Source: a bacterium (GTDB lineage: Bacteria > T1Sed10-126). From it: a DNA stretch of 64,000 bases. Numbering within the stretch: position 1 is the stretch's first letter; each line of letters starts with the position of its first letter. This document shows, piece after piece, positions 273 through 7,976 of the stretch. The DNA is taken from the NCBI GenBank assembly GCA_003554945.1, contig PWHN01000083.1, forward strand, positions 8,030 to 72,029, written 5' to 3'. The notes under the pieces were generated by a model, which saw nothing but the letters and a program-made list of their open reading frames with translations, did no database searches and was not told the origin of the DNA. The translations under genes were made by a program, and so were the position numbers.

Positions 273-330
273 AGTAACATTCCTCCTTTTTAGGTAGAAC
301 TTCAAACAGAAAAGATTTGCTTGAAGCCGC

Positions 331-451
331 GGTTTCACTGTCGTCCCTACCCCACAGTGACTTCCGTATCACTGGGCGGGCGCCCGGGTGTTTATTGGAG
401 GAATGTGCTCACCACCTTTCCACCTGGTTTTGGGCCTGCGACAGCGAAACC
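331..451 (-). ncRNA. Structured 5' leader, candidate riboswitch or RNA thermosensor
   Basis: Read on the minus strand, this 121-nt stretch is closed by a 13-bp stem (439-451 with 331-343, one G-U pair). Inside it is a hairpin (CAGTGA/TCACTG, 355-360 with 369-374) and G/C-rich segments. Positions 397-406, in the transcript ACATTCCTCC, are a perfect 10-nt complement of the ribosome binding site region GGAGGAATGT (277-286) of the porin-like gene about 110 nt downstream. This is what a translation-sequestering leader looks like. I could not match it to a riboswitch class that I know. The stem and the complementarity are seen in the sequence; the regulatory role is inferred. Confidence 0.55.
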
Positions 452-884: not shown

Positions 885-952
885 CCTCGTACTTTGAATT
901 ATTCACTTACTCCCAACATTTTCTCCTCGTACTTTGAATTATTTACTTACTC
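885..952. repeat. Two direct copies of a 28-nt repeat at the 3' end of the RAYT gene
   Basis: The core CCTCGTACTTTGAATTATT is present at 886-904 and again at 926-944, each followed by (C/T)ACTTACTC. The second copy overlaps the stop codon of the transposase gene. An inverted copy lies on the other side of the gene (2139-2162), so the gene is bracketed by the same sequence. This fits the idea that the RAYT recognises its own repeats. Confidence 0.8.
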
Positions 953-1821
953 TTCTCGCGCCACCAGTTATGTGCTTTTGAAACTGTTGATGGGCTCCGA
1001 TTGAACCAGCGTGCTATATCAGATGTTCCATATCCTTCTTCATACATCTTGGCCATTGCTTCTCGCCGCAAATTACTTATTGGCCTCTTTTTACTCTGTC
1101 CACGTATTTCTTCCGTAGTATATTCTGTTCCATCCACTACCTCCTGAGCAATCGTCAGCATAGTTTTCCGCCCCCTTTTCTCTTGAAACGCTTGTGCCTC
1201 ACGTCCCTCCTGACGGCGCTGATAAAATTCATTCCATTCTTTTTCCAAACCAATATATGTCTCATCTCCCGGCATATCTGAACCACAGGCACGTAAACAG
1301 CTTTTAAAGGCTCCTACTCTATTTGGGCTGGAAAATCCAGGCGGATAACACCACGTATCTAAATTAATCCAATCACACTCAATTCCTAAAAACCAATACC
1401 AAGAACTCCACTTGTAGTCCTGAGCAAAATCCGCTATACCTGCCTCAACCGGATTCATATGCACATAGCCAACCACATTGTTAAGGTATCTTTTATCAAG
1501 AATCACCTTAACCACAGGCCGCCCCTGGGTTAAATGACCTCTAATATTACGACGTTTATTAAAACCGCGAGCATACTCGGAATGGGCAATTTTTAAAACT
1601 CGTCCAAGGGAAGTCCCCCCCATTTTTAACAGTAGATGTAGGTGATTGATCATCAAACAAAAGGAACCTATTTTCCCACCAAGCCTATCCATTGTTCTAT
1701 CAAGGAGCCTTAAATACGTAACCCTATCCTCAGGAGAGAAAAACAACGGCTCCTCCCGCTGACCACGTGTACAGACATGATACCAATAGCCTTCCACATA
1801 CGCTCTAACCGGATATCCCAT
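943..1821 (-). CDS. REP-associated tyrosine transposase (RAYT, IS200-like Y1 fold)
   Basis: A 292-residue protein of the TnpA_REP/RAYT family, single-strand DNA nucleases related to IS200/IS605 TnpA. The HUH-type metal-binding pair is visible as NHLHLLL (His60, His62). The probable catalytic tyrosine is Tyr119 in the block YVHMNPVEAG. The C-terminal 60 residues form a helix-turn-helix (DIARWFNRSPSTVSKAHNWW) that longer members of the family carry. The ATG at 1821 lacks a clear ribosome binding site. It has no IS-like terminal structures; instead copies of a 24-28 nt repeat flank it (885-952, 2139-2162). RAYTs are usually domesticated single-copy genes that act on dispersed palindromes, and this window is rich in those. 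Confidence 0.88.
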   Translation of the reverse strand: MGYPVRAYVEGYWYHVCTRGQREEPLFFSPEDRVTYLRLLDRTMDRLGGKIGSFCLMINHLHLLLKMGGTSLGRVLKIAHSEYARGFNKRRNIRGHLTQGRPVVKVILDKRYLNNVVGYVHMNPVEAGIADFAQDYKWSSWYWFLGIECDWINLDTWCYPPGFSSPNRVGAFKSCLRACGSDMPGDETYIGLEKEWNEFYQRRQEGREAQAFQEKRGRKTMLTIAQEVVDGTEYTTEEIRGQSKKRPISNLRREAMAKMYEEGYGTSDIARWFNRSPSTVSKAHNWWREKSK

Positions 1822-1896
1822 AATGATTTCATTTTATCTGATTTTATTAAACTTTCAAAGTATAAGAACAGCCTCGGAAAAATTATGTTCACTGAT

Positions 1897-2089
1897 TGTA
1901 ACGTCTCACGATAATCCCGTGTAATTTATCGAATTACGAACGGGAAAACAATCCTCTCAAAATCAAAAACATATTGGACAGGATAAAATTCTGATGTGCT
2001 GGATTTAAAACCACTTCAACGTCAATTAAGGGGTTTGGATTCACGGGCTTAATTCGAAAGGTTCACCGGAATAAATTCGAGACGTTACA
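1897..2089. repeat. Inverted repeat TGTAACGTCTC ... GAGACGTTACA
   Basis: An 11-nt perfect inverted repeat (1897-1907 and 2079-2089) encloses about 170 bp of non-coding DNA directly upstream of the RAYT gene. The outer flanks are also similar (TGATTGTAACG and CGTTACAACTGATCA). It could be a small non-autonomous element or part of the RAYT control region. No gene is seen inside. Confidence 0.4.
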
Positions 2090-2138
2090 ACTGATCAAGA
2101 GAAGCTGATGCAAAATCTTCATCTTTTTTTCAGGGAAT

Positions 2139-2162
2139 AAGTAAATAATTCAAAGTACGAGG
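2139..2162. repeat. Inverted copy of the RAYT-flanking repeat
   Basis: This 24-nt copy (starting AAGTAAATAATTCAAAG) is the reverse complement of the copies at 885-952. It lies 76 nt before tRNA-Phe, so the RAYT gene and its upstream region sit between oppositely oriented copies. Confidence 0.8.
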
Positions 2163-2238
2163 TAAAAGAAGGAGGTTGATTTTGGGGTGGGGGTTTGGTA
2201 AACTTTTGCCGCTTTCGTTGGATTGCTGTAGTTAAAAA

Positions 2239-2311
2239 GGACAGGTAGCTCAGTCGGTAGAGCACCGCCCTGAAAAGGCGGGTGTCCGCGGTTCGAATCC
2301 GCGCCTGTCCA
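2239..2311 (+). tRNA. tRNA-Phe (GAA)
   Basis: A 73-nt cloverleaf. The acceptor stem GGACAGG pairs with CCTGTCC, discriminator A. D arm GCTC/GAGC, anticodon stem CCGCC/GGCGG with loop CTGAAAA giving anticodon GAA, T arm GCGGTTCGAATCCGC. CCA is not encoded. It stands alone on the plus strand between the RAYT repeats and a hairpin cluster. Confidence 0.96.
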
Positions 2312-2398
2312 TTTTTCTGAGCTCCCTTTCCGTTGTGCACAAATCTTTCCGTACACTTTTATTTAGAATATTTCGCTTACCTCATCGAAATCTAGCCC

Positions 2399-3865: not shown

Positions 3866-4360
3866 TTAGGGGGAGTAACCGAAGTCGGCGAGGATATCGG
3901 GGACGTCGTCGGGGGCGACGTGGGAGTAGACTTTCTCTTCAATTATCACCACGGGGGCCTTGGAGCAGGCACCGACGCAGCGAGCGTCAGTAACGGAAAA
4001 CTTGCCGTCCTCAGTCGGTTCTTCCGGCTCAACACCCAACTCCTCCAGGAAACGGTCGAAAACGGCTCCGGCACCACGAACGTGGCAGGCGGTTCCCGTG
4101 CAGATAATAATCTCGTATTCGCCGGCAGGCTGAAAGTTGAAAAACTGGTAAAAGGAAGCGACCCCGGTGACGCGAGCATAAGGAACGGAGAGAAGACGTG
4201 CAACCTCGTCGAGATGTTGACGGGAAAGATATCCATATTCCTCCTGGACTATCTGTAGAGCAGGAATGAGATAGCTATCCGAGCGGTCGCGCCCCCTAAA
4301 ATCCTGCAGCTTCTCGACAATTTTTTCCTTCAACGTATATTCTTCGCTACAACAGCTCAT
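3866..4360 (-). CDS. hndA: NAD-linked [FeFe]-hydrogenase, NuoE-like [2Fe-2S] subunit
   Basis: A 164-residue thioredoxin-fold ferredoxin of the NuoE/HndA/HydC family. It carries the [2Fe-2S] motif CTGTACHVRG (C-X4-C), then CVGACSKAP (C-X3-C). In the complex it passes electrons between the flavin subunit and the hydrogenase chain in the cytoplasm. It is the last of three genes; its ATG overlaps the stop of hndD by four nucleotides (ATGA), so translation is coupled. Length is normal for the family. A terminator follows at 3717-3741. Confidence 0.93.
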   Translation of the reverse strand: MSCCSEEYTLKEKIVEKLQDFRGRDRSDSYLIPALQIVQEEYGYLSRQHLDEVARLLSVPYARVTGVASFYQFFNFQPAGEYEIIICTGTACHVRGAGAVFDRFLEELGVEPEEPTEDGKFSVTDARCVGACSKAPVVIIEEKVYSHVAPDDVPDILADFGYSP

Positions 4361-6120
4361 TTTATCCCCTGCCGTTCACTGGGTTTATAAGAAGTATGCA
4401 GAAGTTTGTGGGCCCGCTCACTGTTGGGCTCGCCGAGATAATAACTATAAAGTTCCTTGATGTCGGGATTTTCATGCGATTTGCGCAACTGTTTGCTGGA
4501 GTCAATTGTATAGAGCGCCTGAGCCCGTTTTTTCACGAGTTCGGGATCAAGAGCAAAAGTATCTTCGGGCGGATAAGGCTGACCGCCACCACCAACACAG
4601 CCGCCGGGACAGGCCATAATCTCCAGCATGTGGTATTCTTTTTCCCCGGAAAGCAGACGCTCAAATAGTTCTTTAGCGTTCTGCAGACCGTTAGCAACAC
4701 CAATATTTACGTTGTGGCCATCCAGTTCAATTGTCGCCTCACGCAAACCCTGGACACCACGGACTTCCATAAAATCAACGTTTGTCAGCGTCTCCCCGGT
4801 AAAACGTTCGTAAGCAGTGCGCAGGGCCGCTTCGGTAACACCACCGGTGGTTCCAAAAATATCGCCGCCACCACTTGCTGTACCCAGCGGCCGGTCAAAC
4901 TGACTGTCGGGCAGGTTACGGAAATCAACGCCCATGCACTTGCACATCCAGATTAGTTCGCGTGTAGTCAAAACGGCATCAGTATAGGGAGCGCCCCAGG
5001 GAGTTTCGTGTTCCGGACGGGCGGCTTCGTATTTTTTGGCAGTGCAGGGCATGGCGGCAACTGAATATATGTTTTCGGGGGCAATACCCGCCTGCTCGGC
5101 GTAATAAGACTTAGTCAACGACGAGAGCATAGACATCGGAGACTTACAGGTCGAGGCGTTAGGGATCAATTCAGGATAAAAAGTTTCAAGAAAACTAACC
5201 CAGCCCGGCGAACAGGAGGTAATCAGGGGCAATTTTTCTCCCGCCTCAAAACGGTTTAAGAACTCGTCGGCCTCCTCAATTATTGTTAGGTCGGCGCCAA
5301 GATCGGTGTCAAATACAGCGTCGAAACCCATCATTTTAAGGGCGGTAACCATTTTCCCGGCAACCGGTGTTCCGGGATCGTAGCCAAAACCCTCACCAAG
5401 TGCAGCTCGAATTGAAGGGGCGGTCTGAACAACGACGTGCAAATCGGGATCAGCGATCGCTTCAAATACTTCATCAGTAACATTGTTCTCAACTATTGAG
5501 GCGGTTGGACAGACGTTCACACACTGCCCGCAGTGGATACAGACGGACTCCATAATGTCAGCATTGTGGGCGGGCGCGGCCACGCTTTCGAAACCGCGGT
5601 TCTGCTGCCAGAGATTGGTCACCCCCTGGACCTCGTCACAGACGCGAACGCAGCGTCCACAGAGAATACACTTATCGGGTTCACGATGTATTGAAGGCGA
5701 TGAGTTATCCTCCGGATATTGTTTGCGCTCCCCTTCAAACAATCGCTCTCGAACTCCAAGACTGTAGGCGCTGTCCTGCAGCTCGCAGTTACCGTCACGA
5801 ACGCAAGTCTGGCAGTCCTTGGGATGGTTGTCGAGAATAAGCTCTACTATATCACGGCGGTGGCGGCGCAGTTCGGGCGACGATGTCTTAACTACCATAT
5901 CCTCCTCGGCGGGATAGGAACAGGAGGCAACGAGCTGTTCGCGCTTCTCAAGTTCAACAATACAGATACGGCAGGCACCAAGTATGCTTAATTCGGGATG
6001 ATAACAGAGACGCGGTATGTGAACACCAACCTGATCGGCGGCGTCCATTATTGTGGCACCGGGTTCTACTTCAGTCCGAATTCCGTCAATTACAAGACTA
6101 ATTTTGTCTTCTGAATTCAT
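4357..6120 (-). CDS. hndD: [FeFe]-hydrogenase catalytic subunit (HndD/HydA type) with altered L1 motif
   Basis: A 587-residue catalytic subunit. The N-terminus holds a [2Fe-2S] ferredoxin (Cys39, 50, 53, 67), a His-ligated [4Fe-4S] site (His99, Cys103, 106, 112) and two [4Fe-4S] clusters (Cys151/154/157/161 and 194/197/200/204). The H-cluster motifs are TSCSPGW (301-307), MPCTAKKYE (357-365) and EIMACPGGCVGGGGQP (500-515). By ungapped spacing Ser304 falls on Cys300 of Clostridium pasteurianum CpI, a ligand of the H-cluster cubane. The proton path appears intact: Cys303, Glu283, Glu286, Arg290, Ser323. The ATG overlaps the hndC stop (ATGA). With HndA and HndC it should form an NAD(P)(H)-linked, possibly electron-bifurcating, soluble hydrogenase. 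Confidence 0.94.
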   Translation of the reverse strand: MNSEDKISLVIDGIRTEVEPGATIMDAADQVGVHIPRLCYHPELSILGACRICIVELEKREQLVASCSYPAEEDMVVKTSSPELRRHRRDIVELILDNHPKDCQTCVRDGNCELQDSAYSLGVRERLFEGERKQYPEDNSSPSIHREPDKCILCGRCVRVCDEVQGVTNLWQQNRGFESVAAPAHNADIMESVCIHCGQCVNVCPTASIVENNVTDEVFEAIADPDLHVVVQTAPSIRAALGEGFGYDPGTPVAGKMVTALKMMGFDAVFDTDLGADLTIIEEADEFLNRFEAGEKLPLITSCSPGWVSFLETFYPELIPNASTCKSPMSMLSSLTKSYYAEQAGIAPENIYSVAAMPCTAKKYEAARPEHETPWGAPYTDAVLTTRELIWMCKCMGVDFRNLPDSQFDRPLGTASGGGDIFGTTGGVTEAALRTAYERFTGETLTNVDFMEVRGVQGLREATIELDGHNVNIGVANGLQNAKELFERLLSGEKEYHMLEIMACPGGCVGGGGQPYPPEDTFALDPELVKKRAQALYTIDSSKQLRKSHENPDIKELYSYYLGEPNSERAHKLLHTSYKPSERQGIK

Positions 6121-7976
6121 TTGCGTAACACCGCCTCGAAGTTACAGACCTCGTAGCATTGACCGCATTTTATACACTCGTTCTGATCTATTTCATGTGG
6201 TTCCTGTGACTCACCGCTGATACAGTCGACGGGACAGACACGAGCGCAGGCTCCACAGCCAACACAGGGGTCTGCTTCAATCAGATAAGTCACCAGGTAG
6301 CGACAGGCGCCAGCGGGACACTCCTGCTCCTCAATGTGTCGGCGATACTCTTCTTCAAAGTAATCAAGTGTGCTGACAACGGGATTGGGAGCGGCCTGGC
6401 CGAGACCGCAGAGCGAAGCTTTCTGTTCCAGTTCACTCAGGCGGCGCAACAGATCAATATCTTCTTCCTTACCGGCACCGCGGGTAATTCGTTCCAGTAT
6501 CTCCAGCAGGCGGGTATTCCCCTCCCGACAGGGCGTGCATTTACCGCAGGATTCCTCACGGGAAAATTCAATGAAGTATTTGGCCAGATCAACCATACAG
6601 GTCTCCTCGTCCATGACAATCATTCCGCCACTGCCCATGATACTGCCCTTCTCCGCCAGTGATTCAAAATCGACCTTTACGTCCAGCTCATCAGCGGGAA
6701 TACAACCGCCCGCCGGGCCGCCTGTTTGTACAGCCTTTAGTTTTTTACCCCCGGGTACACCTCCACCGATTTCATTAACCACTTCTTCCAGGCTAATGCC
6801 CATCGGCACTTCAACCAGACCAGTGTTTACCACATCGCCGGCCAGAGCAAAAACCTTTGTTCCGGGACTGTTTTCTGTGCCAATATCTGAATACCAATCG
6901 GCGCCTCGATTGATAATATCGGGCACATTGGCAAGCGTTTCGACGTTATTTATTACGGTCGGTCTATCCCAGAGGCCAGACTGAGAAGGATAAGGTGGCC
7001 GCGGGCGGGGCATACCCCGCTTCCCTTCAATCGAATGTAGCAGAGCCGTCTCCTCGCCACAGACAAAAGCTCCGGCACCGCGTCGAATGTCAATATCAAG
7101 ATCAAGACCACTGTCCAGTATGTTTTTACCGAGAAAACCCTGTTCACGCAGATTTTCTACCGCTTTTTCAAGCCTTTTTATAGCCAGTGGATATTCAATT
7201 CGAATGTAAACAAAACCCTGGCTGGCACCAACTGCATAAGCACCGATAATCATTCCTTCCAGAACACGATAAGGATCACCCTCAATTAGACTGCGATCCA
7301 TAAAAGCGCCGGGGTCGCCCTCGTCGCAGTTGGCAACTATAAATTTTTCCTCCGCCTGCTGGCTCAGTGTAAATTTCCATTTCTGGCCGGTCGGGTAGCC
7401 AGCGCCGCCGCGGCCCCGCAAATTAGAAGCCAGTATCTGGTCACAGACCTGCTCGGGCGTCATCTCCGCAAGAACTTTCTGCAAAGCTTTGAGCCCTCCA
7501 GCACGACGATAATCACCTAAACTATCCGGCCTGATATAGCCACAATTATCCAGAACAAGTCTTTTTTGACTCGAATAAAAAGAAATTTCATTTTCTCGAA
7601 GAACTCGCTGTCCACTAACATCCTCATAACAAAGGTCTTCTATGACTTCTCCCTGCGCCAGAGTTTTGTCAATAATCGTCTCGACGTCCTCAACAGTAAC
7701 ATTTGTATAAAGAATACCGACCGGATCAATTCGAACAAGTGGACCCTGTTCACAAAAACCGGGACAACCGGTAAGATCTAAACTTAATCCTTCATTTTCT
7801 ACCTTCTCATCCTCCAGGACAACCTCAGCCGGCAAATCAACCGCCGACAGTCTCTCTTCGAATTCCTCGTAAATATCCAGGGCGCCAGCGGAGACACAGG
7901 GGGTGCCGGCACATACAATTACGCGTGCTTTTTCCGTACCCGGATTGCTGGTCAACGTTTTGGCCTGTTCAGTCAA
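6117..7976 (-). CDS. hndC: NAD-linked [FeFe]-hydrogenase, NuoF-like flavin subunit
   Basis: A 619-residue NADH-binding subunit of the NuoF/HndC/HydB family. In order: an N-terminal thioredoxin-like [2Fe-2S] domain (CAGTPCVSAG, later CPGFCEQGP), the NuoF core with the glycine-rich GRGGAGYPTGQKW and the FMN/NADH segment around GAGAFVCGEETALL, the [4Fe-4S] motif ESCGKCTPCREG, and a C-terminal double [4Fe-4S] ferredoxin (CVGCGACARVCP and CIKCGQCYEVC). It is the first gene of the operon. The start is a TTG at 7976 preceded by AAAGGGGA; no in-frame ATG comes before the conserved domain. The four-cluster architecture is that of bifurcating hydrogenases, but bifurcation itself cannot be read from sequence. 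Confidence 0.93.
   Translation of the reverse strand: MTEQAKTLTSNPGTEKARVIVCAGTPCVSAGALDIYEEFEERLSAVDLPAEVVLEDEKVENEGLSLDLTGCPGFCEQGPLVRIDPVGILYTNVTVEDVETIIDKTLAQGEVIEDLCYEDVSGQRVLRENEISFYSSQKRLVLDNCGYIRPDSLGDYRRAGGLKALQKVLAEMTPEQVCDQILASNLRGRGGAGYPTGQKWKFTLSQQAEEKFIVANCDEGDPGAFMDRSLIEGDPYRVLEGMIIGAYAVGASQGFVYIRIEYPLAIKRLEKAVENLREQGFLGKNILDSGLDLDIDIRRGAGAFVCGEETALLHSIEGKRGMPRPRPPYPSQSGLWDRPTVINNVETLANVPDIINRGADWYSDIGTENSPGTKVFALAGDVVNTGLVEVPMGISLEEVVNEIGGGVPGGKKLKAVQTGGPAGGCIPADELDVKVDFESLAEKGSIMGSGGMIVMDEETCMVDLAKYFIEFSREESCGKCTPCREGNTRLLEILERITRGAGKEEDIDLLRRLSELEQKASLCGLGQAAPNPVVSTLDYFEEEYRRHIEEQECPAGACRYLVTYLIEADPCVGCGACARVCPVDCISGESQEPHEIDQNECIKCGQCYEVCNFEAVLRK

Follow-up and report, generated by a model that had tools for sequence, protein, structure and literature searches.

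Porin mRNAs are classic targets of small RNAs and are usually discussed in connection with small RNAs or RNA thermometers. At the gene of the outer-membrane protein OmpA of Yersinia pseudotuberculosis, the 5′ UTR carries an RNA thermometer, the structure of which was proposed to repress translation (PMC8245352). A literature search revealed no riboswitch controlling a general porin. Here, a porin mRNA leader is described that we consider, with somewhat better than even confidence, to be a cis-acting translational switch; an orphan riboswitch is its likeliest form.

The window (the whole stretch of 64,000 nt analyzed here) begins within a porin gene encoded on the minus strand (1–272), which continues past the window start and was read complete from the contig (G000:C14:7231-8301). 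Its 356-aa product matches Porin_4 (PF13609, E = 3.9e-14) and carries a signal peptide, in agreement with the porin-like identity assigned to it in the preliminary description; a PDB search with the protein gave no sequence match. The start ATG occupies 272–270 and is preceded by an extended Shine-Dalgarno (SD) sequence, GGAGGAATGT (277–286, minus strand). Upstream, a 121-nt minus-strand element (451–331) is closed by a 13-bp stem, P1 (one G-U among the 13 bp), made by strand a (GGTTTCGCTGTCG, 439–451) on the 5′ side and strand d (CGACAGTGAAACC, 331–343) on the 3′ side. Enclosed by P1 are the conserved core AGGCCCAAAACCAGGTGGAAAGGTGGTGA (409–437), a small GCC/GGY hairpin with a near-invariant loop that represents the candidate sensor part; the invariant strand b, GGTGGTGA (409–416); the anti-SD ACATTCCTCC (397–406), a perfect 10-nt complement of 286–277; and strand c, the conserved GTCACTGTGGG (351–361). 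These features lie exactly where they had been placed before as regards the element, its stem, the anti-SD and the SD, and the perfect 10-nt match of the anti-SD (406–397) to the porin SD (286–277) was verified on the sequence. Between the element and the ribosome binding site (RBS) there is a hairpin, CTTCAAGCA/TGTTTGAAG (300–326, minus strand). The 192-nt window leader as a whole has a folding z of −3.1. A terminator platform was rejected because no T run follows the hairpin at 300–326, and leader-peptide attenuation was rejected because the in-frame upstream extension present in the window and in one homologous leader (L024, see below) is stopped in another (L023), and also since the signal peptide begins at the ATG at 272.

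A promoter-like site, TTGACC-16-TATAAT, with 11/12 matches in a consensus scan, was located at 705–732 on the minus strand, and a transcript initiated there would begin about 245 nt before the element. A similar 11/12 promoter-like site lies upstream of the L023 leader, and at L024 inspection by eye showed TTGACA and TATAAT separated by a longer spacer, while the consensus scan of the coding strand from 270 to 451 gave no good promoter match. A transcription start downstream of 331, which had been named beforehand as grounds for discarding the element, is thus not indicated as far as the sequence tells, the promoter matches being upstream. The region upstream of the porin leader encodes an IS200-like transposase (Y1_Tnp, REP-associated type) with a C-terminal helix-turn-helix (943–1821, minus strand), and two near-identical direct copies of CCTCGTACTTTGAATTATTyACTTACTC are found between this gene and the putative porin promoter (about 884–953). 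Further away (3866–6120, minus strand), genes for a NuoE-type subunit-like protein and an iron-only or NADP-reducing hydrogenase subunit-like protein were recognized by eye from the translations.

The complementarity between the anti-SD and the SD is not due to chance. In dinucleotide shuffles of the element interior, the energy of its duplex with the SD was equaled in 0/2000 cases for the window leader and in 0/2000 and 3/2000 cases for the two homologues. The window has 34 reading frames with an SD; the longest perfect complement between RBS and upstream sequence measured 4–7 nt in 33 of them and 9 nt in one, compared with 10 nt in the porin leader. In the whole genome to which the window belongs, the pattern GGAGGAATGTNNNNATG is present a single time, at the porin RBS; the RBS AAGGAGGAATG...ATG is confined to three leader-bearing genes in two genomes, and a search of both for AAGGAGGAATGN{4,8}ATG likewise returned only these three porin genes. 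The lineage thus normally uses another RBS, and the extended SD has been kept together with its anti-SD.

The lineage is uncultured and represented by two genomes; the comparison covers three leaders. Among the genomes compared, the family and phylum are otherwise represented only by the second genome (G001, the soda-lake MAG CSSed10_354m), in which two homologous leaders were found, both immediately preceding a paralogous porin. L023 is 76% identical to the window leader over 119 nt and L024 68%; the corresponding porins share 59 and 52% identity with that of the window. P1 forms in all three leaders, and the pairing of anti-SD and SD is retained with 10, 10, and 9 bp. Hence the stem and the complementarity, the loss of which from homologous leaders would according to the preliminary description have spoken against the proposal, are both kept in three leaders from two genomes. 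The closing stem and the invariant core AAAACCAGGnnGAAAGGTGGTGA are common to the three leaders, the flanking DNA being unalignable; the blocks without any change are AAAACCAGGnnGAAAGGTGGTGA, CATTCCTCC, CTGTGGG, and AAGGAGGAATGT, and the core at 409–437 is identical in the window and L023, with few changes in L024. The hairpin that precedes the RBS is retained in L024 and replaced by another one in L023. In both G001 leaders a further copy of GGAGGAAT occurs upstream of the element (L023, 1202–1210, minus strand; L024), which could compete for the anti-SD; a clear counterpart of this copy is absent from the window.

Both genomes also have porins without the element (C80; C146; two in C78). Where tested, the complement of the RBS in these element-less paralogues reaches at most 5–6 nt. 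Upstream of the L023 leader there are truD and a tRNA-Arg gene (1547–2398, minus strand), a genomic setting unlike that of the window, which indicates that the element goes with the porin and not with the neighborhood. A row of four porin genes was observed in G001 (L034, contig C78, 5405–10110), where the switch leader was seen only at the gene at 6762–7907, the leader of the first gene being cut by the contig end. Beyond these places, the core pattern was found on 11 contigs across 84,980 species, with the rest of the element only on two contigs of CSSed10_354m, and in no viral contig; a covariance model built from these leaders (R1) retrieved only the same three places in 386 genomes, and distant porins from other lineages had no such leader.

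Compensatory changes in P1 were detected at two inner pairs (C-G/U-A and G-C/A-U), and the outer part of the stem covaries too, as judged by eye. In the alignment 94.9% of the cells are paired, compared with no more than 54.5% after sliding of the partner strand; the covariation was reached by 51/500 column shuffles, a test of little power with three sequences. When the complete leader was submitted to RNAalifold, the consensus was not P1 but the OFF fold, with all 10 pairs between anti-SD and SD. In this consensus TTCnCTGYC of the 5′ strand of P1 is paired with GGTGGTGAR, and a second hairpin uses the 3′ strand of P1, with which strand c can pair in the OFF fold. As the 5′ strand pairs both in P1 and with GGTGGTGAR, the same strand serves two helices. 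The helix between anti-SD and SD hardly varies across the leaders and contributes no covariation. Computed folding yields two mutually exclusive states that would control the SD, as in the expression platform of a riboswitch: in the ON state the stem is closed and the G-rich core holds the anti-SD, which has strand b (409–416) and the G-rich segment before it as its partner and leaves the SD unbound; in the OFF state the 5′ stem strand is paired with GGTGGTGA (TTCGCTGTC of strand a with GGTGGTGAG) and the anti-SD lies on the SD. The two alternative folds postulated earlier, closed element or sequestered SD, are in this way supported by computation, and a conserved structured domain with conserved core nucleotides is found, on three sequences. 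The alternative helix of strands a and b was not stronger than in shuffled interiors (p 0.2–0.9), and its identity is therefore a model, not a result. Altogether, the sequence comparison gives good support to a conserved two-state leader, and the exact alternative helix, modeled from three sequences, is best taken as putative.

When P1 or the pairing of anti-SD and SD was forced, the two ensembles lay within about 6 kcal/mol of each other, the window leader being predicted to prefer ON by 6.1 kcal/mol and L023 to prefer OFF by 4.6, with the two states equal (0.2) in L024. With P1 forced, internal pairing takes up 71–82% of the anti-SD; most of it involves the G-rich segment immediately preceding the anti-SD, which accounts for 71% in the window leader, 78% in L023, and 50% in L024. 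The window leader is predicted to be almost wholly ON, yet GGAGG is only about 20% unpaired, owing to weak local pairing. In growing L023 and L024 transcripts P1 is predicted to dominate until the SD is made, after which OFF gains.

Based on these observations, it can be proposed that in the ON state strands a and d would close P1 while the G-rich segment just upstream holds the anti-SD, leaving the SD unbound by it. In the OFF state strand a would pair with GGUGGUGA and free the anti-SD, which would then zip onto the SD over 9–10 bp, so that the porin would remain untranslated. The near-invariant core inside P1 would most likely be the sensor that chooses the fold by binding a small molecule or ion, its near-invariance making a ligand-binding riboswitch the likeliest reading; a ligand that promotes the ON state is very slightly preferred. 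What the trigger is, in which direction it acts and that the switch works in cells, we infer from these features.

The equilibrium between the folds might itself respond to temperature or ions, with no ligand pocket involved. Such an RNA thermosensor or salt- or pH-sensitive fold seems unlikely to us, even if mRNAs of outer-membrane proteins can carry thermometers, as ompA of Y. pseudotuberculosis does (PMC8245352), and the dataset behind the related MAG is from soda lakes, habitats of variable salt and pH. In predicted heating from 20 to 75°C L024 opens, shifting from OFF towards P1, but L023 keeps the OFF fold up to 65°C and the leader of the window is ON at all temperatures tested, so that the melting of the SD pairing in all homologues that characterizes an RNA thermometer was not predicted. 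A simple thermometer, moreover, needs neither an invariant core nor a long anti-SD 110 nt away. As the heat responses of the three predicted leaders differ and the loop sequence is invariant, a thermosensor becomes less likely, and a common thermosensor function appears unlikely from the models.

A trans-acting small RNA could instead flip the leader by pairing with the invariant G-rich core (AACCAGGnnGAAAGGUGGUGA). This is decidedly unlikely in our estimation: porin mRNAs are known as targets of this kind and the core is both G-rich and invariant, but in a search of the two genomes that covered this seed at full length and unsplit, TTCACCACCTTTC with up to one mismatch was no commoner than the reversed control (11 hits, the leaders themselves included, vs 11 for the control). 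A protein, CsrA-like or an autoregulator for example, might bind the leader and stabilize one fold; GGA motifs are present in the core and in the SD, and the two-fold design fits a protein as well as a ligand, but the conserved block is longer than single GGA sites require, and this option is considered improbable. Of the same low probability is the absence of any switch, the leader being a stable 5′ UTR that sets the translation level or mRNA stability and owes its similarity to common descent. There are only three related sequences, and for the window leader a single fold is predicted to dominate; against this, the flanks and the porins (52–59% identical) have diverged far while the leader blocks are still identical, and the SD extension matching the anti-SD is retained only at leader-bearing genes. 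On balance, an orphan riboswitch-like element is the probable identity of the leader.

Should it bind a ligand, the leader would constitute an undescribed riboswitch class, and it would give access to a function in an uncultured lineage, where such handles are rare. Its compact two-state design is open to direct testing even if no ligand is involved. That it represents a lineage-specific new class controlling an outer-membrane porin via a small molecule or ion, an RNA sensor gating permeability, is put forward tentatively. Regarding known classes, the failure of the preliminary description to match one was borne out by an Rfam search at relaxed thresholds, the three leaders giving nothing relevant against 4227 Rfam 15 families at E up to 10 and the window only tRNAs at the gathering score. 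Cobalamin-like features (GGTG..., CACTGT) were considered as well and dropped, as no Rfam model matched.

The ompA thermometer (PMC8245352) is likewise a 5′ UTR RNA structure at the gene of an outer-membrane protein; in the porin leader, however, it is a distant anti-SD that would bind the SD, the other fold being a closed domain around a near-invariant core, and the predicted heat response is inconsistent among the leaders. Orphan riboswitch candidates (PMC7266159) share with it conserved nucleotides in a covariation-supported structure upstream of one kind of gene, but the porin leader is represented by three examples in two genomes of one family, far fewer than usual. Translational riboswitches with an anti-SD platform differ in that the porin leader matches no Rfam class and precedes a general porin; as in these riboswitches, an aptamer-like domain with a conserved core is closed by P1, there is no terminator, and in the alternative fold the SD is the partner of the anti-SD.
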